DNA from: Acidobacteriota bacterium
GTDB lineage: Bacteria; Acidobacteriota; Thermoanaerobaculia; Thermoanaerobaculales; Sulfomarinibacteraceae
Assembly: GCA_013152895.1 (NCBI GenBank)
Contig: JAADFN010000032.1
Location: 1 to 55,892, forward strand
Direction: 5' to 3'
DNA length: 55,892 nt
Each line of letters begins with the position of its first letter. Position 1 is the first letter of the stretch. Positions 3,081-18,100 of the stretch are shown here, one piece after another. The notes under the pieces were generated by a model. That model saw only the letters and a program-made list of their open reading frames with translations. It was not told where the DNA came from and made no database searches. Made by a program: the position numbers and the translations under genes.

Positions 3081-3101
3081 ATCACCTGTTTGGGTGATGA
3101 C
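3081..3101 (+). promoter_or_regulatory. Operator-like element shared with 8465-8485
   Basis: The 20-mer TCACCTGTTTGGGTGATGAC, with one extra leading A, recurs without mismatch at 8465-8485 on the other strand. Both copies have the same orientation relative to the gene downstream. It contains ATCACC-N6-GGTGAT. Two identical 21-mers ahead of two functionally similar gene sets point to common control. Confidence 0.6.
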
Positions 3102-3372
3102 GGCGCAACTCCGGAAGATGTATTCACGGTAATAGATGTCACGTTGTAATCACGGGGCCGGATCACGGCTCGTTCGGTCACCAGGCCGGGCTGCTCACGG
3201 TCGCCGTGGACAGTGAGATCGCCCGGCGGCGGCGAGCCTCCGGAGGTCCAGGAGGAAAGGGGGTGGCAGAGAGAGCTTATTGAAGGAAGGATCGAAGGCT
3301 GTGACGGTTACTGGTGCACTCCGCACGGATTGTGCCGGTCCCGCCGATGATGGCAACCGAAAGGAGAACACG

Positions 3373-4557
3373 ATGGGAAAGATTGAATTGCAAGAGGCAC
3401 GACGGCTGGCTGGACTGGAGTTGAACGGGTTGGCAATAACCGGGGCGATCGCCGTCGAGGAAATCGGTGGCGCACGCGTCGGTGCGAGAGGCACCACGAT
3501 CTACGATCCCAGCGGCGAGCCACTGTTCTACCGCGTACCGTTGCACCGCGGAAGGGGAAGGATCGGCTTTACCGACGTGGCCGCGGACGAAGCTTTAGGG
3601 GAGCCACTGCTCGCCACGACGTACGGTGCGGCCTGGGACGAGACGAAGATCAAGCGGGAAGCCATGGTGCACGCCAGAAGGCTGCGGCGCAACCTCAGGT
3701 ACACGAGGATCCGGTTCGTCGCCTACAGCTATCCGAAAGTGGCGGTCCAGTTTCTGCACGGATCCGAAGAAGTGTTGATGCTGGAATGGGGATCATGGGC
3801 GAAGGTGCCACCAGCGAGTGTCGGTGACCGTCACCCCATGGAGCCCGGAAACTTCGAGAGATGGTCGTTGCTCGAAGAGATGCCCGATCGGGTCCGGAGA
3901 GCGAACGAAGAATCGTTCAGAGCTCGTGTCGGCGCCTGGCGCGAGGCGACCGCCGTCCGGGCCTTCCGGGGGTTGGATACCTTGCGGGTGAGGCCCGATC
4001 TGGTGCGGATCAGGCCGGAGATGATTCGTCTTTTCGGCTCGAGAGAGCTCCATTTTTCGGGAGACGCCGGCACGCATCATCCGTGTTATGAGCTCACCGG
4101 CCAGGCCACAAGCGTCTGGTGCGTGGCGGCAAGCACGCAGATGCTCCTGGCGTTCTGGCGCTACGGGTACACCCAGGACCGAATCGCCCAGGCATTGGGG
4201 CTTGGCACCCGCGCTCATCCGAGCGGGCTGCCCTACTCCCGGGTCGGGGACGTCGTGACACAGATCGAGGCCCTGACCTCCCACGCCCTGGACGCCACCA
4301 TGGTTGTCAACCCCGGGTTCAACGTCTTTCGCGACGAGATCGATGAGAATCGTCCATTGATCAGCTTCATCCCCGGTCATTCACGCACGGTTGCGGGCTA
4401 CTATTACACGATACTTCATCTGCCCGGGCAGCTCGCGTTCCGGGGTCTGTTGGTGTACGACCCGTGGCCCCCGAACACCGGTACAATCCACAGGTATGAG
4501 AACTTCAACGTGCAAACCTACCAGTACGCGTACCACGCCCATCTGACCCTGGTGTGA
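3373..4557 (+). CDS. C39-like papain-fold cysteine peptidase
   Basis: The 394-aa product has no signal peptide. The C-terminal ~150 residues look like a papain-fold (peptidase C39-like) domain. The likely nucleophile is Cys250 in SVWCVAASTQMLLAF, the His is 336 in FIPGHSRTVAGY, and the third residue may be the Asp of VYDPWPPN. The N-terminal half includes a beta-rich stretch (EPLFYRVPLHRGRGRIGF) that resembles the protein encoded at 4554 and the C-terminus of the 5227-6417 product. The ATG at 3373 follows AAGGAGA and is preferred to the TTG at 3280. The gene overlaps 4554-5072 by four bases, implying coupled translation. The substrate is unknown; a C39-like domain need not be an active protease. 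Confidence 0.7.
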   Translation: MGKIELQEARRLAGLELNGLAITGAIAVEEIGGARVGARGTTIYDPSGEPLFYRVPLHRGRGRIGFTDVAADEALGEPLLATTYGAAWDETKIKREAMVHARRLRRNLRYTRIRFVAYSYPKVAVQFLHGSEEVLMLEWGSWAKVPPASVGDRHPMEPGNFERWSLLEEMPDRVRRANEESFRARVGAWREATAVRAFRGLDTLRVRPDLVRIRPEMIRLFGSRELHFSGDAGTHHPCYELTGQATSVWCVAASTQMLLAFWRYGYTQDRIAQALGLGTRAHPSGLPYSRVGDVVTQIEALTSHALDATMVVNPGFNVFRDEIDENRPLISFIPGHSRTVAGYYYTILHLPGQLAFRGLLVYDPWPPNTGTIHRYENFNVQTYQYAYHAHLTLV

Positions 4558-5072
4558 CCGTGTCCATGGATCGTGAGCTGCACGCCGTGTTGCGGAGAGC
4601 TGCGGAGCTCGTGCGGGCTGGCGTGGCCGGTGATCCATGGGTCCAACTCCACGGACGCTTGCGCGATCCGATGGTGGTCGTCCACCCCTGGGGCGACGCG
4701 CAATCCTGGCTCGTTCCCGTCACTGCCGGAGACCGGATGGTCGGCTACGTGCAGTTGAATCCCGACCTTCAATTCATGCGATACGTATCGTTCCAGAGAG
4801 TGCGCGGCAGCTTGAAGGACACACCGTTGGCGGCGGACTGGTTGGAAACCGAGCGTATCCGGGAGCGGGCGGCGGCTTTCGCCAGGCCTGACGAGATACT
4901 CGATGAGCCCGTTCTCACCTACGACCGGTATCCGGATCGGCTTGCATGGAGGGTCCAGGCTCGAAGCACGGATGGTGGAACGCGGGAGATCATGGTTGCC
5001 GGCGACATGGTTTACGAACCGGTCCAGCCCGGTGACGTGATCGGTGGTCCGGGAAACCAGGGAGCACCCTGA
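4554..5072 (+). CDS. Stand-alone accessory domain of papain-fold system
   Basis: I do not know this 172-aa protein as a named family. It starts at a GTG overlapping the stop of the peptidase gene (GTGA). Its second half resembles the C-terminus of the product of 5227-6417: YPDRLAWRVQARSTDGG and GDMVYEP here, YLPAWRIETPGG and GTVYKLP there. The same domain therefore appears as a separate protein beside one peptidase and fused to the other. A PepSY/propeptide-like inhibitory or chaperone role is possible but unproven. There is no signal peptide or membrane segment. Confidence 0.6.
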   Translation: MTVSMDRELHAVLRRAAELVRAGVAGDPWVQLHGRLRDPMVVVHPWGDAQSWLVPVTAGDRMVGYVQLNPDLQFMRYVSFQRVRGSLKDTPLAADWLETERIRERAAAFARPDEILDEPVLTYDRYPDRLAWRVQARSTDGGTREIMVAGDMVYEPVQPGDVIGGPGNQGAP

Positions 5073-5093
5073 TACCCGGATACGGCAAAATGG

Positions 5094-5130
5094 TCGGCCC
5101 CTGCCATCGAGGCAGGGGCCGATTCATCTT
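5094..5130. terminator. Strong hairpin terminator between convergent genes
   Basis: A perfect 12-bp stem (TCGGCCCCTGCC / GGCAGGGGCCGA) closes a 5-nt loop, ATCGA. It is followed by TTCATCTT. It lies between the ends of the genes at 5072 (plus) and 5227 (minus) and could stop transcription from both sides. Confidence 0.75.
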
Positions 5131-5226
5131 GGGACTTCCGGGCCGGCCGGAAGGATCAACGATGCGTTGGGCCGAGCCATCTTACACGCCGTTGTCCCTT
5201 CAGCTCGCAGCCGCCCATCGGCGAGA

Positions 5227-6417
5227 TCACCGCATCTTCGACCTCGGCCGTAGTTTTCGTGAGGGCGGGAGCTTGTACACGGTGCCACGTCCGGTGACCA
5301 CGGCCGAACCTCCCGGGGTTTCGATCCGCCACGCAGGGAGGTAGCGGGGAGCAATGCCGGGGCCGGAAACCGTATACGCCCGAGCTTCGCTCAGATCCCG
5401 AAGCCGCAACACCGCAGCGGATCGGCGGATGGCCTCCCGCTCGTCGAGCAGGGGGCGCGGGCTGAACCGGTCGATCTCCTGGAATTCGCCGGTGTACGCA
5501 TTGACGAGAACCGCCAGCGACGGAGCTTCCCCTCGGCGGGCGAAGGGAACGATGTAGTAGCCCCCTCGCTTCGGGTTGACGAGAATGGGCGCCTGGGGCC
5601 GGGCGCTCTGAGCTCCGCAGAACGGTTCCATTTCGGCAAGCCTCAGCTTCCGGATCCAGCGTCTTGCAAACGCAGCCGCCTTTTCGGGGGGGATCGGCCG
5701 GCCCGTCATGATTTCGCGCCTGACGCGAACGATGCCCCTGCGAGCGGGGGGCTCGATCACCGCCACGTATTTCCCGTTGAAGGCGCTGCTGGCCTTGTTC
5801 ACGGGGCTGAGCTCGCCAAGGAAGATACTGGCCGAAACGTACCTTTCGAGGGGAGGATCGCCCAGGGGGACACCCGGATCGACGAGCCAGACGTACGTGA
5901 GGTCCACCGTCGAGTGGGTCGTCGGGTCCTGGTCGGTGACGATTCCCCTGATGACGATCCAGTGTTCCCGGTGGGCGGTGTACGAGTTGTGCGGATCCGT
6001 GTCAAGCAGCAATGGTACCGGGAAGTTGTTTCGGGTCATCCAGTAGGCGACCGAGTACATGAGCTTGTTGGCGTTCGTACGGGCATAGACGACCCAATGA
6101 CCGGAGGCCGGGGGCGGACACAGGCTCATCAGTGCGCCTCGCAACCCCGCAGGGTCCGTATCCCATGCCGTTTCGGACTTGTTGGCCAGGATGGACAGCC
6201 AGGCGTCGGCCTGACTGATGGTGCACGCCCCGGAGGGGTATCCCTGCATAACCATTTCCGCCGTCGCGGGGCCACACCACGTCACGGCTTCCTCAGAATG
6301 GGGCGGAACGCTCAGCAAGACGCTGTGAAGCTGAGCGAGGCACGGAGACGTCCATAATGTCACCAGGACCGTGCCGAGGAGCGCTCGTTGTACGGTTCTC
6401 CAAGCCGGAGTTCTCAT
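5227..6417 (-). CDS. Secreted C39-like papain-fold protein with C-terminal beta domain
   Basis: The 396-aa product begins with a clear signal peptide ending near SPCLAQ, so it acts outside the cytoplasm. A papain-like domain follows: Cys48 in AVTWCGPATAEMVM, a His in REHWIVIRGI and an Asp in WLVDPG. The last ~130 residues form a second domain (GGYYIVPFARRGEAPSLAVL ... LPAWRIETPGG) matching the free-standing protein at 4554-5072. The start has AGGAGC upstream. It lies 19 bp after the 6437-8257 gene, so the two probably form one operon. It converges on the 3373-5072 pair, giving a mirrored arrangement of related peptidases. Confidence 0.7.
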   Translation of the reverse strand: MRTPAWRTVQRALLGTVLVTLWTSPCLAQLHSVLLSVPPHSEEAVTWCGPATAEMVMQGYPSGACTISQADAWLSILANKSETAWDTDPAGLRGALMSLCPPPASGHWVVYARTNANKLMYSVAYWMTRNNFPVPLLLDTDPHNSYTAHREHWIVIRGIVTDQDPTTHSTVDLTYVWLVDPGVPLGDPPLERYVSASIFLGELSPVNKASSAFNGKYVAVIEPPARRGIVRVRREIMTGRPIPPEKAAAFARRWIRKLRLAEMEPFCGAQSARPQAPILVNPKRGGYYIVPFARRGEAPSLAVLVNAYTGEFQEIDRFSPRPLLDEREAIRRSAAVLRLRDLSEARAYTVSGPGIAPRYLPAWRIETPGGSAVVTGRGTVYKLPPSRKLRPRSKMR

Positions 6418-6436
6418 GGTTGTGCTCCTTTCTGTC

Positions 6437-8257
6437 CTACGGCGCGCACGTCGAGCCGGTGATATTGATGGTCACCGATTGATGGGCATCGCCGCGGATG
6501 ATGTAGTTATACCCGTTGATCGTTCGTTTCCAGGTCCGGAGATAGAATGTGTACGCACAGTCACAGGGTGCAGACCATCCGCTCGGGGGCACGATGGCGT
6601 TGACAACGCCGCTCCACAGGAAAGGTCCTTCGGCATTGACGTTCGACGCGTAGCTGTCGCTGAAGATCGACGCCGACTTGTTGTGCCCCCAGAGCGCCCT
6701 CAGGGAGTAGCTGAGAAGGTGATGGTTTGGATCGTACGCCTTGATCCGGAAGTCGAACGTGTTGGAACCCGATAGGACGATCCCGCATGCGCTCACCGGT
6801 CCCCCGGGGACCTGCCGGACCGCGAGCACATCCGTGTCCACCGGGCTGTTGTCGATCATCAATGACAGGCTGTTCTTGGCTGCCGGGAGAAGGTGGGTCA
6901 GCGGCGTGTACGTCGCTCCGGTCTTCTTGTAGAGCTCAACACCGAAGGTGTGCAGGCCGTTGGTGGAGCTGTGCCAGCGCATCATGAGGAACGACGGGTA
7001 CCAGCGGTACGGCGCTCCCGGGTATTCGGGAGGAATCGCGTAGTAGCCCCCTCCCCCGGGGACCGGCCCAACGGGGGTGAGCTCGTACGTGCTCGTGGCC
7101 GGGTTCCATCGATAGGCCTTCCACCCGGACTGAAGGGGCGTCGGCGATCCGCCGGGCGAGGTCATCAGCACCCGGTAGTGCGTCGCTCCGAGACTCTTGA
7201 AGTTGGAGAGATTGCCCAGGATATTGATCGTCCCACCGAACGGAGCGTGAGTGACCTTGAAGAAGTAACCCGGACCGGTGGTTGCGTAGCCATCCACGAT
7301 ACTGGTGGAAGGCACGTGGCCGACACCGAGGAATACGGGCTCTCCCATGGGCAACTGGGCGAGCTGGACGCGCATCAGCTTGCTGTCGGTCGTCACATAC
7401 GCGGTACCCGAGGCGAGGTTGAAGGTAAGAGCCGAGGGTCCGGAAGGCAAACCCGTGATGATGGGGCTGTGCGTCACGGTGACGAGATCGATGAGAGACA
7501 CCTGCCTGGCCGGATTCCTCTGAACGACCCAGAGGGAGGTCTCCGCCGGATCGCTCCACGAGAGGAAGAACGGCGCCGTGAGGCCCGTGGCGACGTTTCG
7601 CACGCGGGTTCCGGTGGAAAGCTCGATCTCGGCGACTCGCGAGCCCGTTTGTTCCGTCACGTAGGCCAGGGTTCGATCCGTCGTGATCGCAAGGCCTACG
7701 GGATGGCCGAGGCCGCCGGTCACCGGGACTTTCACGCCGGTCGTCAGGTTGACCTTCCAGAGCCGGCCGATATCGTATCCGACCACATAAGCAGTACCGT
7801 GGGCTGAATCGAGGGCCAGTTGCTGTGGTGCGCCAAGGTTGAAGGTGACAAGGCTCCTGGCTCCCGTGCCCAGGTCGACTTTCCACAAAGCCCCGCTGGT
7901 ACCGGGGTCGTCGCGAGTCGTGACATACCCCGTGCCGGAATCGAGGTCCAGCGCGATGTCCTCGGGATGGGAGAAGCCGCTCGCGAGCGTTGTCACGGCA
8001 CAGGTGGGCGGGCTCGCGACCTCGCAGCCCGGAACGAGGTCCATGCGCCGAAGCGTTCCCGAGTTGTACTCGACGAAATACAGGGCGTTGGCGGTGGGAT
8101 CGTACGCAATCCCGACCCCAGCTCCGAGCCCTGAGGCGAGCTCGGTCGTGGTTACCGCTGCGACCTGGCTGGCGAGGCACACAACGAGTACGGCCACCAG
8201 GAGGGCACACGCAACAGCCGGGGACCCGTGATGCACGTGGGGGGTGTGGTGTTTCAT
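6437..8257 (-). CDS. Secreted beta-propeller protein
   Basis: The 606-aa product carries a signal peptide (ACALLVAVLVVCLASQVAA). Residues about 35-300 contain repeated blades such as GVGIAYDPTANALYFVEYNSG, LDSAHGTAYVVGY and ITTDRTLAYVTEQTGS, typical of NHL/YVTN-type propellers. The C-terminal 300 residues are not recognised; they include paired cysteines (APCDCAY) and are rich in Tyr and Trp. The gene heads an operon with the secreted peptidase downstream. Its leader contains the operator-like element at 8465. A cell-surface binding role is likely; the ligand is unknown. Confidence 0.65.
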   Translation of the reverse strand: MKHHTPHVHHGSPAVACALLVAVLVVCLASQVAAVTTTELASGLGAGVGIAYDPTANALYFVEYNSGTLRRMDLVPGCEVASPPTCAVTTLASGFSHPEDIALDLDSGTGYVTTRDDPGTSGALWKVDLGTGARSLVTFNLGAPQQLALDSAHGTAYVVGYDIGRLWKVNLTTGVKVPVTGGLGHPVGLAITTDRTLAYVTEQTGSRVAEIELSTGTRVRNVATGLTAPFFLSWSDPAETSLWVVQRNPARQVSLIDLVTVTHSPIITGLPSGPSALTFNLASGTAYVTTDSKLMRVQLAQLPMGEPVFLGVGHVPSTSIVDGYATTGPGYFFKVTHAPFGGTINILGNLSNFKSLGATHYRVLMTSPGGSPTPLQSGWKAYRWNPATSTYELTPVGPVPGGGGYYAIPPEYPGAPYRWYPSFLMMRWHSSTNGLHTFGVELYKKTGATYTPLTHLLPAAKNSLSLMIDNSPVDTDVLAVRQVPGGPVSACGIVLSGSNTFDFRIKAYDPNHHLLSYSLRALWGHNKSASIFSDSYASNVNAEGPFLWSGVVNAIVPPSGWSAPCDCAYTFYLRTWKRTINGYNYIIRGDAHQSVTINITGSTCAP

Positions 8258-8377
8258 GAAGACATCTCCTTTCTTTCAGCCGGATGTCCCGGCCGAGGTT
8301 GACGAGCTCCCCCGGAAGACGGGGGCCGCAGTGCTCGTGAGAGTCACCACGGTTTTTCATCTCCCGTTGGTGCGAAT

Positions 8378-8408
8378 CCCGGGGACAAATACCGCGTTCG
8401 TCCCCGGG
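8378..8408. promoter_or_regulatory. 9-bp inverted repeat in leader of propeller gene
   Basis: CCCGGGGAC and GTCCCCGGG form perfect arms around a 13-nt centre. It lies about 120 bp upstream of the start codon at 8257. It could be the terminator of the LuxR-type gene or an operator; there is no T-run on either side, so I cannot decide. Confidence 0.4.
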
Positions 8409-8464
8409 AGGCGATCCGATGTCAGAGGCCTCTTGAGGCATATGTACCGGTTCACCGTCCGGGG

Positions 8465-8485
8465 GTCATCACCCAAACAGGTGAT
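8465..8485 (-). promoter_or_regulatory. Operator-like element, second copy
   Basis: On the minus strand this reads exactly as 3081-3101. It sits between the LuxR-type gene and the propeller/peptidase operon, about 210 bp before the start at 8257. In both copies a GC-rich patch and an ATGTAT/ACATAT-like stretch follow. Confidence 0.6.
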
Positions 8486-8583
8486 CGGCCCGGTACAAAC
8501 CCACCGATCCGCCGGCGGTAGCACGCCGATCCAGTTGTCATCACTTGAATAACCCGGAGGTACGTCTCTGGCCGCGCGGAGCG

Positions 8584-9792
8584 TCAGACCAGATCGCGGG
8601 GGGCCTCGGGAGGTTTGACCGGGACGTAGAAGCCCGACGAATCATCGGGTCCCTTGATGGGCGCTATGGCACGAAGAACGAGTCTCACGAGGTCGCTTTG
8701 GCGCCCGGCGCCGGTCTTGCGGAAGATGTTCGAGAGCTGGGAATGCACCGTGTTTCTCGAAAGACCGAGCGTGTTGGCCGCTTCGGTCAGGTTCTTCCCG
8801 GCAAGAAGCTCCATGACGAGCCGCACTTCGGCCCCGGTGAGGCCAAAGAGGTCCCGCACGAGATGGTCGACGGGAGTGTGGAATCTCTCCGGATCCGTGA
8901 TGAACAGGATGGCGATGATGGAGCCTTCCGTCATGGGCTGGCAGCTTCGAGGAAGCGGGAGAACAACGACCTGGTAGTCGGATCGGCCCGACGGCCTGGG
9001 GAGCCGGAGAGCTCTTCCCGCGGGTTGCTCCGCTCGCGACCGGGTTCCGCTCGCCTCGCGGATAGTGGCTCGAAGCGTCGTGGTATCGCTGTGGCTGGCT
9101 GCGGCGGGTCCGTCCTCGCGGATGGTGAACCCGTCGTTGTTCCTGCTGATGCGGCGTGCCTCGCGGTTGACCAGCAAGGGACGGCCCTGCCCATCCATCA
9201 GAACGACGCCCGTGGCCATGCGATCGAGGGCGCCAGCCGTGACGTCCGACAGTCGCTCCGCTCGCAGGATTCGGCGTTGAACGGTGACCGCCCGGGCCAT
9301 GTGGGGAAACAGCTCGCGGAGGGTCTGACGCTCCAGCTCCGTGAACGGCGTAGAATCCGTCCCGCGGGCGATCCAGAGAGCCGCGTACAGATCTCGTTCT
9401 GCGAGGAACGCCGCTCCCGCGGCCTCGACGAGCCCCGCAGGCTGCAAGAGGCGCTGAAAAACCGTGGATTTCAGGAACTCCCGTCCCCGAAAGACGACCC
9501 TGGTTGAGAGAACCATCTTGAGAGGGCGGCGCCGTGCCTCCATGACGAGCTCATCGCCGTTCATGTGGCGCTCGTTATACGCGCTGACGACCTCTTCCGG
9601 GAATCCTGTGAATGCGCTGATCCGAACCGTGTTCGTGAGGGGGTCGGTGCAGTGCAGCCATACGGCAGCCGATCCAAGGATCTCCCGCATTGCCACCAAC
9701 GCCTCGTTCCAACGGCCGGGCTTCGTTGCGGCCTCGTAGATGAGCGGGATGACCGAGGCGATCTCGGCGGCATCGTTCATGCGAACCACCAT
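8584..9792 (-). CDS. LuxR-family transcriptional regulator
   Basis: The 402-aa product ends in a GerE/LuxR helix-turn-helix: FGLTGAEVRLVMELLAGKNLTEAANTLGLSRNTVHSQLSNIFRKTGAG. The N-terminal ~300 residues look like a GAF/PAS-type sensing region rather than a receiver or an acyl-homoserine-lactone domain. I see no ligand-specific motif. The start at 9792 has GAGGGAGAA upstream; a second ATG lies four codons in. It lies upstream of, and on the same strand as, the propeller/peptidase operon. It is the natural candidate to bind the shared 21-bp elements, though this is inferred only from position. Confidence 0.85.
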   Translation of the reverse strand: MVVRMNDAAEIASVIPLIYEAATKPGRWNEALVAMREILGSAAVWLHCTDPLTNTVRISAFTGFPEEVVSAYNERHMNGDELVMEARRRPLKMVLSTRVVFRGREFLKSTVFQRLLQPAGLVEAAGAAFLAERDLYAALWIARGTDSTPFTELERQTLRELFPHMARAVTVQRRILRAERLSDVTAGALDRMATGVVLMDGQGRPLLVNREARRISRNNDGFTIREDGPAAASHSDTTTLRATIREASGTRSRAEQPAGRALRLPRPSGRSDYQVVVLPLPRSCQPMTEGSIIAILFITDPERFHTPVDHLVRDLFGLTGAEVRLVMELLAGKNLTEAANTLGLSRNTVHSQLSNIFRKTGAGRQSDLVRLVLRAIAPIKGPDDSSGFYVPVKPPEAPRDLV

Positions 9793-10157
9793 GGCGGGGG
9801 TTCTCCCTCACACGGGCGTGCCCGTACATCCCGAGACCGCTCACGGGGGCGAAGGAGACGTGAAGTTGAATTCTGGTTCTCACGCCAACTCATCCACGGC
9901 CTTTGTCGTCCACCGAGCATATCTCCTATCTCCTCCCGGTCCCTCCAGCTCCGATGCGCCCGCCGGGCTCGCTGAGGCGTTCGTCTCCGAGCCACAATCT
10001 TTGATCACGCCTATATGAATCCATGTTACTCAACCTGAGACACTCGCGTCAATACGACGTGATCTTCGACACACAAACAGGGTGCACAACGAGGGGAAGC
10101 GGACGCCGGGGAGGCGGCCGAGCCTGCCAACGACGATTCCTGTGCAACCCAGCAACA

Positions 10158-10203
10158 GTGGAATCATCCCCAACTCGCGGGCGGGGCTGTGGAACAATCC
10201 CCA
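10158..10203 (+). promoter_or_regulatory. Paired activator-type sites, 31 bp apart
   Basis: GTGGAATCATCCCCA (10158-10172) and GTGGAACAATCCCCA (10189-10203) are 13/15 identical to each other and lie exactly 31 bp, or three helical turns, apart. They end 75 bp before the -24 box of a sigma-54 promoter, a usual place for enhancer sites. The same motif and spacing recur at 18382 and 24751. I propose they bind the NtrC-type regulator encoded at 20108. Confidence 0.65.
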
Positions 10204-10277
10204 CACACCACCCCTGGTGCAGCTGCACAATCCAGCGTTGCCGGCGCCGTTGCGGCTTTCACAACCTTGAAGACGGT

Positions 10278-10293
10278 TGGCACGGTTCTTGTA
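10278..10293 (+). promoter_or_regulatory. Sigma-54 promoter of pentaheme gene
   Basis: TGGCACGGTTCTTGTA matches the -24/-12 consensus TGGCACG-N4-TTGCW except for T in place of C in the -12 GC. The spacing of ten bases between the GG and GT pairs is correct. The gene start lies about 60 bp downstream. Confidence 0.65.
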
Positions 10294-10355
10294 TTTCTAA
10301 TGAACGCTGTGTGGGTGCGAGCACTGAACATCCGAAAACCGGGGAGGTGAGAACA

Positions 10356-11084
10356 TTGTCACATTCCAGAGCGAGGCATCTGGTTCCGGTCCGGCTGGTA
10401 GGGATTCTTGGGGCGCTCGTTGTCGTGGCATCCGCCGGCGTCGTCATCGGTGCCAGCATCATCGGTTCAAAACACGATCTCTCCACGACGGGTGGCGACC
10501 CATACTCCGACCGGGTCTGCGTTTTCTGCCACACTCCTCACCACGCCAACGACACCCTGCCCATTCAGGCGCCGTTGTGGAACCGGTTCATCGACACCAA
10601 CGAGACCTTTACCGTGTACACAAGCCCGACCATGGACACCACTCCGGGCAATCCAAATACGACGGTTTCCATGCTGTGCCTCGGCTGCCACGACGGGACC
10701 AATGGCACGGCGGTGGTCAACGGCATCACCGGGAGCACCAAGCACGACCTGATCAATGCGCCCGGCCCGGGGGGGATCCCGGACACGACGTCGGAGCCCA
10801 ACTGTCGGCGCTGTCACGGCCAGATGTACGGCGACCCGCCGGCGGTCTGGCAGGGAACGGATCTTTCCAACGACCATCCTATCGCCATGACCTACCCCAC
10901 CTCGGCGCAGGATCCAATGTTCAACACGCCGCCAGATCTCAATACCGGATGGGCTCTGGTTCCCCTCTACAACGGGAAGGTGGAGTGTCCGACCTGCCAC
11001 GATGTCCACAATCCGGCCAATACGCCTTTCCTCCGCATGCCGAACGATGGCAGTCAGCTCTGTGTCACCTGCCACATCAAGTGA
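10356..11084 (+). CDS. Pentaheme c-type cytochrome, filament-cytochrome-like
   Basis: The 242-aa exported protein has five CXXCH motifs (CVFCH, CLGCH, CRRCH, CPTCH, CVTCH). It shares a framework with the tetraheme proteins at 25253 and 29814: GSKHDLS near the mature start, CVFCHTPHH, PLW, CLGCHDGT, NDHPI, CPTCHDVHN and a terminal CVTCHIK. The CRRCH between the second and third framework haems is extra. No ATG fits; the TTG at 10356 follows GGGGAGGTGA at good spacing and gives a signal peptide, so I chose it. The function is probably periplasmic or extracellular electron transfer. The end overlaps the convergent HD-GYP gene by eight bases. Confidence 0.85.
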   Translation: MSHSRARHLVPVRLVGILGALVVVASAGVVIGASIIGSKHDLSTTGGDPYSDRVCVFCHTPHHANDTLPIQAPLWNRFIDTNETFTVYTSPTMDTTPGNPNTTVSMLCLGCHDGTNGTAVVNGITGSTKHDLINAPGPGGIPDTTSEPNCRRCHGQMYGDPPAVWQGTDLSNDHPIAMTYPTSAQDPMFNTPPDLNTGWALVPLYNGKVECPTCHDVHNPANTPFLRMPNDGSQLCVTCHIK

Positions 11085-12249
11085 TGATCTCGCGAAGCGG
11101 CTGGGCGGCGGGAAAGAGGTGCGCGACGCCAACGGTTGTTACCGTGAGGGTGAGCGCCTCTGCTATCCGCGGATCGAACTGGCTGCCCGCGCACGCCTCG
11201 ATCTCGGCCAGCGCTTCCTCGATCGTGCGACCCATCCGGTACGGCCGCGGCATCAGCATGGCGTCCAGGGCATCGGCCACCGCGATGATTCGGCTGTGAA
11301 GCGGAATCTCCTCGCCCCGCAGGCCGTCCGGATAGCCGCCGCCGCCGAAGCGCTCGTGGTGTCCCCGCACCACCGGCGCAAGGTCCGAAACCAGCGGGAT
11401 TTCCTCGAGCATCTCTGCTCCCACGACGGGATGTTGCTGGATCCGCAATCGTTCCGCCGCATCCAACGGCCCTGGCTTGCCGAGCACGCTCTCGGGGACA
11501 CCGATCTTGCCGATGTCATGAAGTGATGCGGCAACTTCCAGGCGCTCCAGGGGCGGGCGTTCGATTCCGAGTGTGCGCCCGATGTGGTGACACATATGTG
11601 CGACTCTCGCGGAGTGTCCCCGCGTCACGGCGTCCTTGGCCTCGAGCGCCGTGGCGAGCCCACGGATGATTCCCAGGTAGTTTCGCGCCTCCGCCTCACG
11701 GTAACGCCGGCAGCGCAGGCCCAGGGCCAGGTTCGTCGCGAGCGCCTCGATCACCAGCAAGTCCTCGGCCGCGAAAGCGTTGACCTCGGGGCTTGCCAGC
11801 GTCAGCACGCCAAGAAGCTCACCGTCGTGTTCGATGGGTACGCTGGCCGCGGACAGGCGACGGTACCCGAGAACCGACACCGGGCCGAAACGGCCGTCGG
11901 CCTCCACGTCGTTGACGACGACCATCTGGCGGGTGGTGGCCACCCATCCGGACAGCCCCTCGTGCAACCCGATGGTCGGCACATCGGGGAAGCACCCCGA
12001 AAGTCCCTGGCTCGCCATGAGCTCGAGAGCATTCCCCCCTGGCCTGAGTATGAAGAGCAGGCCAACGGGGCAGCCGATCTGAATGCAGGAGCTGGCAAGC
12101 GCCCGTTCGTAGGCCCTCGCCCCTTGCTCCAGGAGATGGTGGCCGGCCACGACCACCGAACGAAGCCGCCCGAGGGCGGTGCCGGTCGGTGCGTCTTCCT
12201 CCGGCGTTACAGCATTCCAAAACGCCTCGGCCTGCGAACTTTTTCCCAC
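11077..12249 (-). CDS. GAF-HD-GYP protein, probable cyclic-di-GMP phosphodiesterase
   Basis: The 390-aa product has a GAF domain at about residues 50-200 (EGLSGWVATTRQMVVVNDVE). An HD-GYP domain follows with the metal-binding HDIGKIG, the signature HHERFGGGGYPDG, and IAVADALDAM. HD-GYP proteins with these residues hydrolyse cyclic-di-GMP; the ligand of the GAF domain is unknown. The GTG start at 12249 follows GGGAGGGGA; further in-frame upstream codons exist. It ends by overlapping the pentaheme gene. Its place beside surface cytochromes suggests a link between second-messenger state and surface electron transfer, which is inference. Confidence 0.85.
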   Translation of the reverse strand: MGKSSQAEAFWNAVTPEEDAPTGTALGRLRSVVVAGHHLLEQGARAYERALASSCIQIGCPVGLLFILRPGGNALELMASQGLSGCFPDVPTIGLHEGLSGWVATTRQMVVVNDVEADGRFGPVSVLGYRRLSAASVPIEHDGELLGVLTLASPEVNAFAAEDLLVIEALATNLALGLRCRRYREAEARNYLGIIRGLATALEAKDAVTRGHSARVAHMCHHIGRTLGIERPPLERLEVAASLHDIGKIGVPESVLGKPGPLDAAERLRIQQHPVVGAEMLEEIPLVSDLAPVVRGHHERFGGGGYPDGLRGEEIPLHSRIIAVADALDAMLMPRPYRMGRTIEEALAEIEACAGSQFDPRIAEALTLTVTTVGVAHLFPAAQPLREIIT

Positions 12250-12332
12250 TACTCCCCTCCCGGGTGGTTGAAGATCCGCAGATGCGCCCTGTCTCCACCC
12301 TGTCTCCACGTCATAGCAGGAATCATGCCGGG

Positions 12333-15161
12333 TCAATGGCAACCACTCACCGTCGCACAGGAGAACCTCCTGTAATTCCGGCTGTTCGAGATGCTCCAGG
12401 AGTTAATCCGCGCCGTGTTCCCCCCGGCGTTGTAAGGGGCCGGATCGGACGTCAGGACGATGAGCGCCTTGCGGTGCCAGCCGTGGGGTACCGCGGAGTG
12501 ACACCACGCGCACTTGAAGGTATTGGGAAACGCCGCGGAGTGGGTCCCGTGCAGGTTGATATACCCTCCCATCCACCGGGAGAAACCGGTCTGGCCGGTG
12601 CTGCTGCTCTTTCCGGCATAGGTCTTGTAATCGTGACACTCGAAGCACAGGCCGTTGGGAGTGTTGATCCCGCTGCTCGCATCCCAGGGCTTTTTGAGCA
12701 CCGGTGCGTTCGCCGAACCGTGCGGGCCCTGGACGCCCGAAGAATCGTCGTTCCCGTGGCAGTCGGAGCACACCATGGGCGAGCTCTTGGTCCATGGCGA
12801 GCCCGCGACAAAGGTCATGTAACGGCTCGTGCTGTTGGTACGCGGCGTGTTGTTGGCCGTGGTCCAGTCAGGGGGTTGCGTCGCCGTCTGGTCAGTCATG
12901 ACCCAGTGGTAGGCGTCGTTATTGACGTTGAACTCCAGCGCCTGGTCGGTTTCGCCCGTCGGCAGCGAGGTTCCATAGGCAAAGGAGCTGTGGCACTTCA
13001 AGCAGATCTGGTACTCCGCCGACGCGGCCGCCGGGTGCGAGGTGAAATTCGCGGAGGTGAAAACGGACCACTCGTTTGGAAGAGAGGCCACGCCGACCCC
13101 CGTGGCGCCCGTCAGGGCTCCGGCCAGACCCGCCGAAGCCGGAGTGTGCAGGCCGGCCTGCGCCCGGTGCGTGTCGTGGCAGTCGAGGCAATTGACGTGC
13201 CGGTTCGCCCCGGAGAAGGTCCCGTCGTTGAAGGTCGCCCCTTCCTCGGCCACGGTATTGTGGACGGAATCGGCCTCCACCGGGTGGCTCGATGCCTTGG
13301 CGATCACGGTCGCCACGTCCTTCCCCGAAAGGTTGACTCCCGTGGTCCCGTTTCCGTGACAGTTGTAACAGATGAAGTCGGAGGCGTTTCCTGCTGGGTT
13401 GATCGATCCCGAAAGTAGATCTGGATAGTCGGAGAAGTGGACGGCCCCGAACGGGCTGGAAGAGGCATCCGGTCTGCCGTCGCCACGATCCGCGTGGCAC
13501 TTGGTGCAGTTGCGTTTGAACGTGGAGCCGTCGTGAATCGTGTAGGTCCACGTACCGTAGGCGTTGGAAGTGTAGTTGTGGGCCGAGGCGCTGAAGGCCG
13601 TCTTGTCGATGGTAGGCCTCCCCGAAGCCACGGCGTTCTTGTGGCAGGAGACGCACATCCCGCCGTTGGCTTGGCTGGCGTCAAAATCCGTCTGGGCAGG
13701 CGTCCCGGAGATGATCTCGCCGTTGACGTTCCGGCCCACCGCCCGGCTCGCCTGGGTCGAGGCATCCTGATGGACGTTGTAGTTGTGTGTGGTTCCACCG
13801 GGCGTGTTGTGCACGTGATCCGGGTGGCACATGTTGACGCAGGAACGATCGGCGGGCGCCACCGCCGAGAGCGGCGCCGTCCAGGCGACACCGCTGTCTG
13901 TGAAGCTGTCGTTGACACCCAGCACGGAGCCAATGGAATGCCGGCTGGTCTTGGCCGTCGTGCCATTCATGCCCTCCCAGATCGTCGCGTGGCACCCTGC
14001 GCAGTTTGTGCCGCCCTTGCTCTCCGTGGCTGCGAAGCCCCGATTGTGGGGATGGCAGTTGACGCAGCGCGTGCCAGCATTGTGGGTGTGATTGCCACTG
14101 GCGTTGTTCCGGTGGTACTTGGTTCGTGTATGACAGGCTTCGCAAATGCCGTCATCGTAAGGAGCCGGCGTCGGAGAGGTGACCCCGAGGTAGCTCCGGT
14201 TCGGATTCGTTCCCCCGGTCCTGTCGTCCTCCCAGAACGTGATGTCCTTGGGACCGCTCGAGGGCGTCTCGATCGTTCCCCGGATCAGGTAGATGTTGAG
14301 CGTCCTGTGGGGCGTATGGCAGGTGAGACAGTCCACGGCCCAGTTGCCGTACTTGGTCCCCGTGAATTGGCTCGAATGGGTCGCCAGGTTGTGGCAGTCC
14401 ACGCAGAGCTCGGAGCCATTCGTACGCCGGAGGAGCTGCCCGCTGCCCGCCGGCCGCGTCCCATTGTTTCTCACCGAGACGCCCCGGACCGCGCGGGCGA
14501 CGTTGCCCGCTGCATCGGTGACCTCGACGGTGATCTCGTGCCAACCCCGCGCCAGGGCCGTCAGGTCAACGTTGAACTCCCATACCGAGCAGTTGGTTCC
14601 GCAGTCGTAGTTGGAGTTGACGGTCGCCGTCGTCGATGGTGCTCCCCCATCCACGTACCAGGCGAGCGGCGTGGCCGCAAGACCCCCCTCATCCCACACC
14701 TGGACCTTGACCCGCTCCGTGCCGCCGACCACCGCCCCCTGCGCGGGCACGAGGATGAGGACCGTCGGCGCGACGGTGTCCGCGCCACACGAGGGAAGGG
14801 TGAACGGCCCCAGCACCTCGGGGTTCGAACCGGAGACACCATCGGGATCGCTGAATGTCACGCGTACCCAGTAGCTCTGGCCCGCGGTCAGGCCGGGAAC
14901 CAGACACTGGCGCGGAGAGCCGCCGGAAAGTGCGCTACAGGCCACCGTTCCGGGCCAGCTATTCGCCGTGTTGTACTCCACCTGCGTGGCGCCATCACCG
15001 TTGTCGTCTCCCGTGAATCTGGACGTCACCGTCAACTCCGAGCAGGAAGACACCAGAACGTCGGACCCGACGACAACCGTATTGTTGCCAGCGAACGCGA
15101 TCATGGGAACAGCCAGGATCATGGCGAGGAACGGTCCCGTCAACGTACGTCGAAGCATCAT
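12333..15161 (-). CDS. Exported ~15-heme c-type cytochrome with Ig-like N-terminal region
   Basis: The 942-aa product has a signal peptide (LTGPFLAMILAVPMIAFA). About 250 residues of fibronectin/Ig-like sequence follow (SYWVRVTFSDPDG, WHEITVEVTDAAGN). Then come 13 CXXCH motifs, from CVDCH to CAWCH. Two variant motifs are present: CVNMCH (CX3CH) in the middle and CATVSGCH (CX5CH), which forms the last residues of the protein. Similar odd spacings are known in Geobacter-type multihaem proteins. The ATG at 15161 overlaps the stop of the upstream fusion gene (ATGA), indicating a two-gene operon. It is probably an outer-surface electron carrier. Confidence 0.85.
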   Translation of the reverse strand: MMLRRTLTGPFLAMILAVPMIAFAGNNTVVVGSDVLVSSCSELTVTSRFTGDDNGDGATQVEYNTANSWPGTVACSALSGGSPRQCLVPGLTAGQSYWVRVTFSDPDGVSGSNPEVLGPFTLPSCGADTVAPTVLILVPAQGAVVGGTERVKVQVWDEGGLAATPLAWYVDGGAPSTTATVNSNYDCGTNCSVWEFNVDLTALARGWHEITVEVTDAAGNVARAVRGVSVRNNGTRPAGSGQLLRRTNGSELCVDCHNLATHSSQFTGTKYGNWAVDCLTCHTPHRTLNIYLIRGTIETPSSGPKDITFWEDDRTGGTNPNRSYLGVTSPTPAPYDDGICEACHTRTKYHRNNASGNHTHNAGTRCVNCHPHNRGFAATESKGGTNCAGCHATIWEGMNGTTAKTSRHSIGSVLGVNDSFTDSGVAWTAPLSAVAPADRSCVNMCHPDHVHNTPGGTTHNYNVHQDASTQASRAVGRNVNGEIISGTPAQTDFDASQANGGMCVSCHKNAVASGRPTIDKTAFSASAHNYTSNAYGTWTYTIHDGSTFKRNCTKCHADRGDGRPDASSSPFGAVHFSDYPDLLSGSINPAGNASDFICYNCHGNGTTGVNLSGKDVATVIAKASSHPVEADSVHNTVAEEGATFNDGTFSGANRHVNCLDCHDTHRAQAGLHTPASAGLAGALTGATGVGVASLPNEWSVFTSANFTSHPAAASAEYQICLKCHSSFAYGTSLPTGETDQALEFNVNNDAYHWVMTDQTATQPPDWTTANNTPRTNSTSRYMTFVAGSPWTKSSPMVCSDCHGNDDSSGVQGPHGSANAPVLKKPWDASSGINTPNGLCFECHDYKTYAGKSSSTGQTGFSRWMGGYINLHGTHSAAFPNTFKCAWCHSAVPHGWHRKALIVLTSDPAPYNAGGNTARINSWSISNSRNYRRFSCATVSGCH

Positions 15162-18100
15162 GGCCCGTCCTCCGTGAAGGTATTGCTGTCGGCGTAATGA
15201 ACCCCGTGGCACGTCAGGCACTGGACACGGCCCCCGGCATCCAGGCGAAGGTTATCGGAGCTCACACCGTCCCCTCCGCCTCCCCCCTGGACGGCGCCGT
15301 TCCCGTCGAGGGGCACCGAGCGGTCGTATCCCCGCCCGTTGGCATTGAGGGCCACGCCGACCGGATGACTCTTCCATTTCCAGTCGAAGACCTCAACCTC
15401 GTTGTAATCCATGGTCCAGAGGGAATGACAGTCACGACAGAACTTGTCGCCGCTGGTATTGTCGCCCTGATCCAGGGGCGCGCGGAGGAAGGGATACGAC
15501 GCCGAAAACCGCCAGCGCTCTCCCAGGACGAAGGTCCCACCGGAGAAGGTTACCGTCAGGCCGTTGTCCAGGGGGACGCCGGTGCCGATGTCCGCTTCAC
15601 CGGCCCAGGTGGAGCCGCCGTCCTTGGAGTACCGAAAGTGGGCATTGGCGATGGTGATCTCGATCAGGTAGGACGAGCCCCCCGCACCGGTGTACGTCCC
15701 GCCCACGGTAACCTGCCCCGTACTGCCCAGGGAGGTGATGCGTTCCGGCGGTGACACGCGGAGTTGGCCGCGGTTGCTGGCCCTGGCCTTGTGCTGATCG
15801 TGGCATGTGGAGCAGACGACGTTGCCATTCATGATCCGTTTGACCATCTCGGGATTTGTTGGCATCTGGGCGCCCCACTGGGACGCATCGACCGGAACAT
15901 CGAAACGGTGCGTCGTTCCCGCCTGGCCCGGCACGGCCCTGTCCGACGAGTTGATGGGCAGAGCGGACGCAAGCCCGCCGGGGCTGTGACATGACTGACA
16001 GAGGTTAACGTTCCCGGCCGAGGTCGTCAGCGAGCCGCCCGCCGCATGGTGCCCCGTGTGGCATGAGGCGCAGTCGATGCCGAAGTACCAGTGAGGCGGG
16101 TCCACGGCCTGGACGGTCGCGGTCCCGGCGAGAAAGACGCCGATGAACACCAAGACCAGCGTGCGGCGCCGGAGAGCTGCCCACCCGGCAAGAGCGAGCA
16201 GCATCGCCATGAGGGCAAGGCCCCAGGGACCCACGGTGGGGATGCTTGCCGCCTGTCCGCCTTCGCCCGAGAGCGTGGCCGTCACCGGACCACCGGACGA
16301 CGTGCTCTCGACGGTCAGAGTCGCTTCCATGTGGCCCGTGGCATCCGGTGAGAACCGGACCTCCAGGGTGCAGGACTCCCCCGGCCCGATGGTGGCGCCG
16401 GTACACGGGTCGGCGACGAGAACGAACTGGGCGGCGTCCTCACCACCGATCTGAACGCTCGTCACGTCCAGAAAACCACCGCCGGCGTTGGAGAGCGTCA
16501 GGGTCCCCGGACCGCTGCTGTGACCCACAGCTACCGTTCCGAAATCCAGGCTGCCTGGCGACAGCTGCGCCAGGGCCGCGGGCGCCGCGATACCCCTCGC
16601 CTGAAGCGCGACCGTCTGGGAACCCTCTCCGCTGCACTGGAAGCTCAGGTCTCCCGCCACCCGGCCGGACCGGACCGGATCGAAAACAACCGTGGCGGTG
16701 CAGCTTTCACCGGGCGCAAGTCCATCGCCGCAGGTGGTCTGCGTCTCGAAGGCGGCGGGCCAATGGATACCGTAGATCCCCACGGGGACAGGACCCGTAT
16801 TGGTCAACTTGACAACGCGGGGTTCGCTCGTCTGTCCCACGGTGACATCTCCAAAGTCAAGAAGCGCCGGACTGGCTTCGGCCTGGGGAACCTCGGCTTC
16901 GGTGCCATCGAGCCGGAAGATCTGGACGCTGGAGGAATTGACAGAAGCTATCGCGAGACGTGGCGGGTTCTCCAGCACGGCAAGCCCCATGGGAGTGTGA
17001 AAACGCCCGGACTCGTCCCCGTACGTCCCCAGGCTTTCCCGGAAGCTGCCGTCGGCGTTGAAGGTCTGGATCCAGCTCTGGAAGGCGTCGGAAACGTACA
17101 GCACGTTCCCCGGTCCCACGGCGACACCGGCGGCCCGCGTCAGCTCTCCTTGACCATTGCCGAGGGAAGAAATGCTCTTGAGAAAGTTCCCCGCAGGATC
17201 GAAAACGAGGACCTGGCCGAGCACGGCGTCAGCCACCAGAACCTCTCCCGCGGGCGACCAGGCCAGCGCCACCGGTTCGCGAAATTCGCCGGAATTCTTC
17301 CCGCGCCGGCCGAAGGTGGCGGTAACGGTGCCCGACCCGTCGAAGGAAACCACCCGGCCAGTGGCGCCGTACAGGACCCAGATCCGATGGCCGGCCTGGT
17401 CGATCGCCACGTCGGTGACGGGACCGAGGGGAGCCCCAGGATCGAGACTACTCAGGATGCTGCCCGTGGCGGACAGCAGAAGCAGTCCTGTCCGGGTTCC
17501 CACCACGAGCCGGCCGAGCCAGTCCCCGGCCACGGAGGTGACGCCAGGGACCCGAACGGTTCCCAGAAACTCGCCCGTAACCGGGTTCACGAAATCCAGC
17601 CCGTCCACGGCCGCATCTGTCACCGCAAGGTCGCCCCACTCGTTGACACCGACGTCGAACGGAGCGGCCAGACCGCTGTCCAACGCCGTCTCCGCTACGG
17701 CGTTCGAGATGGTGAAATCCAACGTCTTGGAGGAGCTGTTGCCGCTTGGATCGCTGGCGGTGCACGTGACGGTTTCCCGTCCCGGAGCGGCCGGCGCGTG
17801 ATACGTGGCGGCGCCGCCGGAGCCGGGCGACACCGTGCCAAGGGCCGCAGACCAGCTGAAGGTAACGGGATCCCCCTGCGGATCTACCGCAGTCGCCTGC
17901 AACTGGGCGTTGCCGTCGACCAGAACCGGGTCATGGTCGACGGTCAGCGAGGTGATCACCGGCTCCTGGCCGGCGGTTGCGCTCACCTTGATCACGACCT
18001 GGGCGCTGGTGGTCTGACGGCCCCCGCACAAGGAGGTTCCGCTGTCAGCGAGTGTGATCGTCACGGTGACCGTTCCCTCCGTGGACGGCGCCCTCCAGAC

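Follow-up and report, generated by a model that had tools for sequence, protein, structure and literature searches.

A predicted 21-bp operator before two gene sets with C39-like peptidases, and its probable LuxR-type reader, in an acidobacterium

Two identical copies of a 21-bp element stand before two gene sets with C39-like cysteine peptidases in an acidobacterium of the family Sulfomarinibacteraceae, and with high confidence the element is predicted from its sequence to be an operator. It is most likely bound by a dimer of the LuxR-type regulator encoded alongside, which would be a direct activator of both gene sets. An operator had been proposed in the preliminary description, and the joint occurrence of regulator and motif, the proximity of the motif to LuxR orthologues, its association with one recognition helix and its fixed distance from a -10 hexamer all support that proposal; the activator model is favoured by these same observations together with a footprint conserved in another family (genome G036) and the rarity of the element. 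The window, that is the whole stretch of DNA analysed, comprises 55,892 nucleotides of contig JAADFN010000032.1 (assembly GCA_013152895.1), and holds the following features:

2950-2965: perfect palindrome GGTGATTGATATCACC, following the gene for glycogen phosphorylase
3081-3101, plus strand: predicted operator copy 1, ATCACCTGTTTGGGTGATGAC, with the core palindrome ATCACC-N6-GGTGAT at 3081-3098
3119-3126, plus strand: candidate -10 for copy 1, TGTATT (3119-3124) or TATTCA (3121-3126), with an inferred start at about 3131-3133
3373-4557, plus strand: C39a, a 394-aa Peptidase_C39_2-like cysteine peptidase (PF13529)
4554-5072, plus strand: partner protein of 172 aa and no known family, its gene sharing 4 bp with the end of C39a
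5227-6417, minus strand: C39b, a 396-aa secreted C39-like cysteine peptidase, second gene of its set
6437-8257, minus strand: 606-aa secreted protein, first gene of that set, with weak similarity to PF08450
8441-8446, minus strand: candidate -10 for copy 2, TACATA, with an inferred start at about 8434
8465-8485, minus strand: predicted operator copy 2, ATCACCTGTTTGGGTGATGAC, identical to copy 1
8584-9792, minus strand: LuxR-type regulator of 402 aa, with a GerE helix-turn-helix (HTH) and the recognition helix SRNTVHSQL

The two gene sets had been described as divergent, which is wrong: one runs from 3373 to 5072 on the plus strand and the other from 8257 to 5227 on the minus strand, so that they are convergent. 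Their description as peptidase gene sets holds for the plus strand, where C39a belongs to Peptidase_C39_2 with 27 bits against PF13529 (curated cut-off 24), but the minus-strand set opens with a propeller-like protein and is C39-like in its second gene alone. That 606-aa protein has a signal-like N-terminal stretch, judged by eye, and its similarity to SMP-30/NHL-type beta-propellers falls under the cut-off (PF08450, E 0.0026). C39b, at 21.6 bits, lies just beneath the PF13529 threshold and outside the family by that measure; the motifs WCGPA, HWIVI and VDPG and a secretion signal can be recognised by eye. By the same kind of inspection C39a has an extended N-terminal region and lacks an obvious signal peptide, and structure prediction from its single sequence was uninformative (pLDDT 32). 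Unlike Peptidase_C39_2 systems, the locus shows no ABC transporter or bacteriocin leader, and the pairing of a C39 protein with the 172-aa partner or with a propeller protein carries no family name here. On inspection the 172-aa protein was suspected of resembling C39b, which BLASTP did not support. Searches for plasmid relatives of C39a found none, and PADLOC gave no convincing match to defence-system cargo.

The presence of an adjacent LuxR-type gene is confirmed: it lies directly upstream of the minus-strand set and on the same strand. Its product has a C-terminal HTH of the LuxR type (GerE, PF00196), scoring 23.0 bits against a cut-off of 23.5 in the protein scan and 26.8 bits, above the cut-off, in the genome scan, and its profile matches solved LuxR/NarL HTH domains. 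A confident AlphaFold2 model built on 22 homologues (pLDDT 84.6) is read as a predicted succession of GAF-like domain, long helix, PAS domain and LuxR-type HTH, and a Foldseek search with this model returned phytochrome PAS-GAF cores and, among its best matches, VqmA, at modest TM-scores. Pfam scans gave no receiver-domain match in the protein and no match at all in its N-terminus, the autoinducer domain included. The CviR N-terminus shows weak profile similarity (E 1.5e-4 over the whole chain), with no stretch passing alone. Seven proteins of the genome hit the GerE model; the helix SRNTVHSQL is absent from the other six, two of which resemble sigma-factor regions. No viral relatives of the regulator were found, and a literature search found no paper on it or on LuxR proteins in Thermoanaerobaculia. 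Beside the gene lies a CxxCH-rich, multihaem cytochrome-like ORF (10023-11084), and nearby are ORFs for a GAF-HD protein (11077-12342) and for a large secreted product rich in CxxCH (12333-15221).

Further genera of the family, and one more family of the order, have orthologues of the regulator (33-68% identity). The element is present at several of these loci, frequently right after the regulator gene. The consensus TCACCC[AG]TTTGGGTGATG recurs among these Thermoanaerobaculia relatives; the window copies differ from it in carrying T where it has C at the sixth base of the left arm. At one mismatch or fewer, TCACCNNTTTGGGTGATG has 27 matches over 40 related genomes and its reversed control none, and across 149 genomes of the class perfect copies are concentrated in the same two families as the LuxR orthologues. 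Regulator and motif are found together in 10 of 37 genomes, the motif alone in 1, the regulator alone in 2 and neither in 24 (Fisher test, 1.9e-6, treating genomes as independent and ignoring their relatedness). Genome G019 was left out of the motif-bearing set because its single match lies inside a coding frame. The two genomes with the regulator alone are G018, where the gene is cut by a contig end, and G035, where the site is degenerate; the one with the motif alone, G014, has three sites and no LuxR orthologue that could be found. The only congener in the set, G001, has neither, and in G011 the sites do not adjoin the regulator gene.

The association extends to the part of the protein that would contact DNA. 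A search with the regulator alignment gave 77 loci. A perfect TCACCC-N4-GGGTGA lies within 2 kb in 7 of the 11 whose helix reads [SA]RNT[VA]H[ST]QL and in none of about 66 with other helices, an approximate figure, as two HTH genes are present at some loci. Of the seven, two belong to Geminicoccaceae (Alphaproteobacteria), where the LuxR-type protein shares the helix SRNTVHSQL. At both of these loci (L149, 4301-5602; L168, from 7235) the LuxR-type gene is followed directly by the site and then by an acetamidase/formamidase gene, a family scanned for in L149 only, the L168 protein being a close look-alike; this placement suggests amide or nitrogen control there.

Could another protein read the palindrome? 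The closest known operator is that of the Group I targets of BldM in Streptomyces, a NarL/FixJ-family regulator whose homodimer leaves a footprint on the 16-bp palindrome TCACcCgnncGgGTGA and activates target promoters (PMC4125116). The consensus of 28 aligned sites is the same 16-bp palindrome with a 4-bp spacer, TCACCC-N4-GGGTGA, and both are read, or would be, by an HTH of the LuxR (NarL/FixJ) type. The likeness ends there: the spacer here is [AG]TTT, the hosts belong to another phylum, and BldM is an atypical response regulator, whereas the protein here pairs its LuxR-type HTH with no matched receiver and is predicted to carry GAF-like and PAS domains, which places it outside the BldM type. 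Since BldM binds this palindrome, the palindrome alone is not diagnostic, and for that reason we retain as an unlikely alternative a BldM-like NarL/FixJ response regulator encoded elsewhere in the genome, the neighbouring LuxR gene being incidental. The genome does encode other GerE-type proteins, and the palindrome precedes DUF4199 genes in genomes of families f8, f12 and f14 without a LuxR orthologue, so other regulators can use it; it also occurs three times in G014, again with no such orthologue found. Against this stand the co-occurrence with the LuxR family, the lack of both in the congener, the fact that site and gene lie tightly together in several genera and also in Alphaproteobacteria, and the helix-specific association, all of which favour the neighbouring LuxR-type protein. 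The DUF4199-linked palindromes are probably read by another regulator. At loci L111, L114 and L117, in three other families of the class, the palindrome has the form [AT]TCACCCGTT[TC]GGGTGATG and precedes genes for DUF4199-type membrane proteins (assigned by Pfam in L111, by eye in L114 and L117).

The promoter geometry points to how the LuxR-type protein might act. When the 28 sites are aligned on the motif, their flanks are unrelated save for a -10-like hexamer (approximately nAtnTT) 20-21 bp behind it; this offset is the strongest of all those scored, and 0 of 2000 flank shuffles reach its score at any offset. Among seven distant sites held out, offset 38 was not the top one and 196 of 2000 shuffles did equally well; TAnnnT lies within two bases of that offset in four of the seven. 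With the transcript start taken as seven bases after the hexamer, the fixed offset would centre the palindrome near -42.5, in phase with the -10, the arrangement of a class II, LuxR-activated promoter. A lux box is likewise an inverted repeat centred at -42.5 (PMC3376562) and read by a LuxR-type HTH; it is 20 bp long and of other sequence, and no LuxI gene is seen near the regulator here. VqmA of Vibrio and phage also fuses a PAS sensor to such an HTH, with one sensor domain where the present protein would add a GAF-like one, and the similarity is weak (TM about 0.2-0.4).

Computation shows the sites, how rare and how conserved they are, the fixed -10 spacing and the link with this regulator family and its recognition helix; that the protein binds, that it activates and does not repress, that it senses a cue, and any role of the peptidases are inferences. 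In the proposed mechanism the GAF-like and PAS domains would probably respond to a small molecule or some other cue, and the HTH, as a dimer, would bind TCACCC-N4-GGGTGA, which overlaps the -35 position and extends just upstream of it. The bound protein, at about -42.5 as at lux boxes, would then recruit RNA polymerase to a weak promoter, so that both operons would be turned on together, C39a with the 172-aa gene on the plus strand and the propeller gene with C39b on the minus strand. A site that overlaps the -35 region could also serve repression, with the dimer blocking RNA polymerase until a signal lifts the block. This alternative is also improbable: apart from the palindrome itself, nothing recognisable as a -35 hexamer was seen, and class II activation typically shows such a fixed phase relative to a weak -10.

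It is very doubtful that the 21-mer works as RNA, as a leader hairpin or a terminator of the preceding gene. The 31-mer around copy 1 does fold well (-15 kcal/mol, z -3.4) and several sites closely follow the LuxR gene, but no T run follows the element, many sites are not behind a gene end, conservation extends to the loop TTT and the flanking GATG, and there is no Rfam match. The -10 downstream moreover places the element upstream of its own inferred transcript start, and the RNA reading was rejected.

The distribution of the element in the genome bears on a last alternative. The preliminary description reported the same 21-mer with ATCACC-N6-GGTGAT arms at both places, in the same direction relative to the genes, and this is what is found: each copy is oriented toward its own downstream gene set, which the fixed -10 geometry explains. 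Many copies in unrelated regions would have pointed to a repeat; a scan of the whole assembly for ATCACCTGTTTGGGTGATGAC (2.99 Mb, up to 3 mismatches) returned these two alone, so that objection fails, and the reversed pattern, used as a control, had 0 matches. Elsewhere in the genome the looser ATCACC-N6-GGTGAT is perfect at just two places, where the spacers are unrelated. That the element is a dispersed repeat, or the end of a mobile element, copied before both gene sets, as identity over 21 bp might suggest, is scarcely credible and was rejected, since there are two copies only, their flanks are unrelated, and the short consensus is intergenic in many genera amid unrelated flanks.

Two further sites in the window resemble the element in part. 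A half-site-like sequence, GTGATGAC, lies at 8530-8550, about 55 bp upstream of copy 2. The palindrome at 2950 had been described as built of the same half-sites, and these are indeed present; they are everted, however, in the order GGTGAT-N4-ATCACC, a geometry different from that of the operator. The genome contains GGTGATTGATATCACC perfectly at one place, and a one-mismatch copy with the same spacer (C102:52969) lies inside a coding frame. As a third operator it was rejected, on the everted half-sites and the near-copy in a coding frame, and it is probably unrelated to the predicted operator; it can be read as GGTGA-N6-TCACC, a spacing that we take to resemble the CRP type.

What follows the element in relatives varies greatly, while the regulator and the site are retained; gene calls at those loci are our own simple calls, some of them uncertain. 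In G036, a genome of the other family (locus L102), the element is followed by the same two-gene operon, C39a being 67% and the 172-aa partner 52% identical, and in the upstream regions of the two genomes the sole conserved block is the 21 bp, at 90% identity, next to genes 68% identical in DNA. C39a occurs in only these two of the 149 genomes, and C39b in no other genome of the class; a homologue of the 172-aa protein at locus L088 (53% identical) is also linked to the putative operator. Elsewhere the element precedes genes for a B12-radical SAM enzyme with a small protein, CHAP/peptidoglycan-binding proteins, an exo/endonuclease and a patatin, and in other genomes lipoprotein, DUF6345, GEVED and kinase genes.

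Some of these loci deserve mention in their own right. At L085 (2191-4170) and L086 (from about 7559) the gene behind the element encodes a conserved protein of 82 aa that has no known family, and at L085 it is followed by the gene of a B12-binding radical SAM enzyme, possibly a modified-peptide pair. At L101 (about 7400-8164, minus strand) an operator-like site precedes a pair that by eye resembles the MazE/MazF toxin-antitoxin genes. L102 holds a second, degenerate operator-like element, TAGCCCAAATGGGCGATGAC, at about 3500-3650, before a metallo-beta-lactamase-fold gene (3780-5234).

A model in which this GAF-like/PAS/LuxR-HTH family has retained a single operator in both Acidobacteriota and Alphaproteobacteria, with almost complete turnover of its targets, could have merit, and we put it forward tentatively. 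If it is true, each genome couples rare or orphan cargo (C39 operons, the small protein with its B12-radical SAM enzyme, CHAP, patatin, nuclease, formamidase) to one promoter module. That the palindrome is the one described for BldM hints that several unrelated sensor architectures read one site. For an uncultured clade of Acidobacteriota, the analysis provides a concrete predicted regulator-operator pair with its promoter geometry. If a conserved switch does govern changing cargo, as the analysis suggests, scanning for the operator would find unknown accessory functions that answer one signal, and could bring together secreted peptidases and modified-peptide genes, as yet unstudied, that respond to a single cue.
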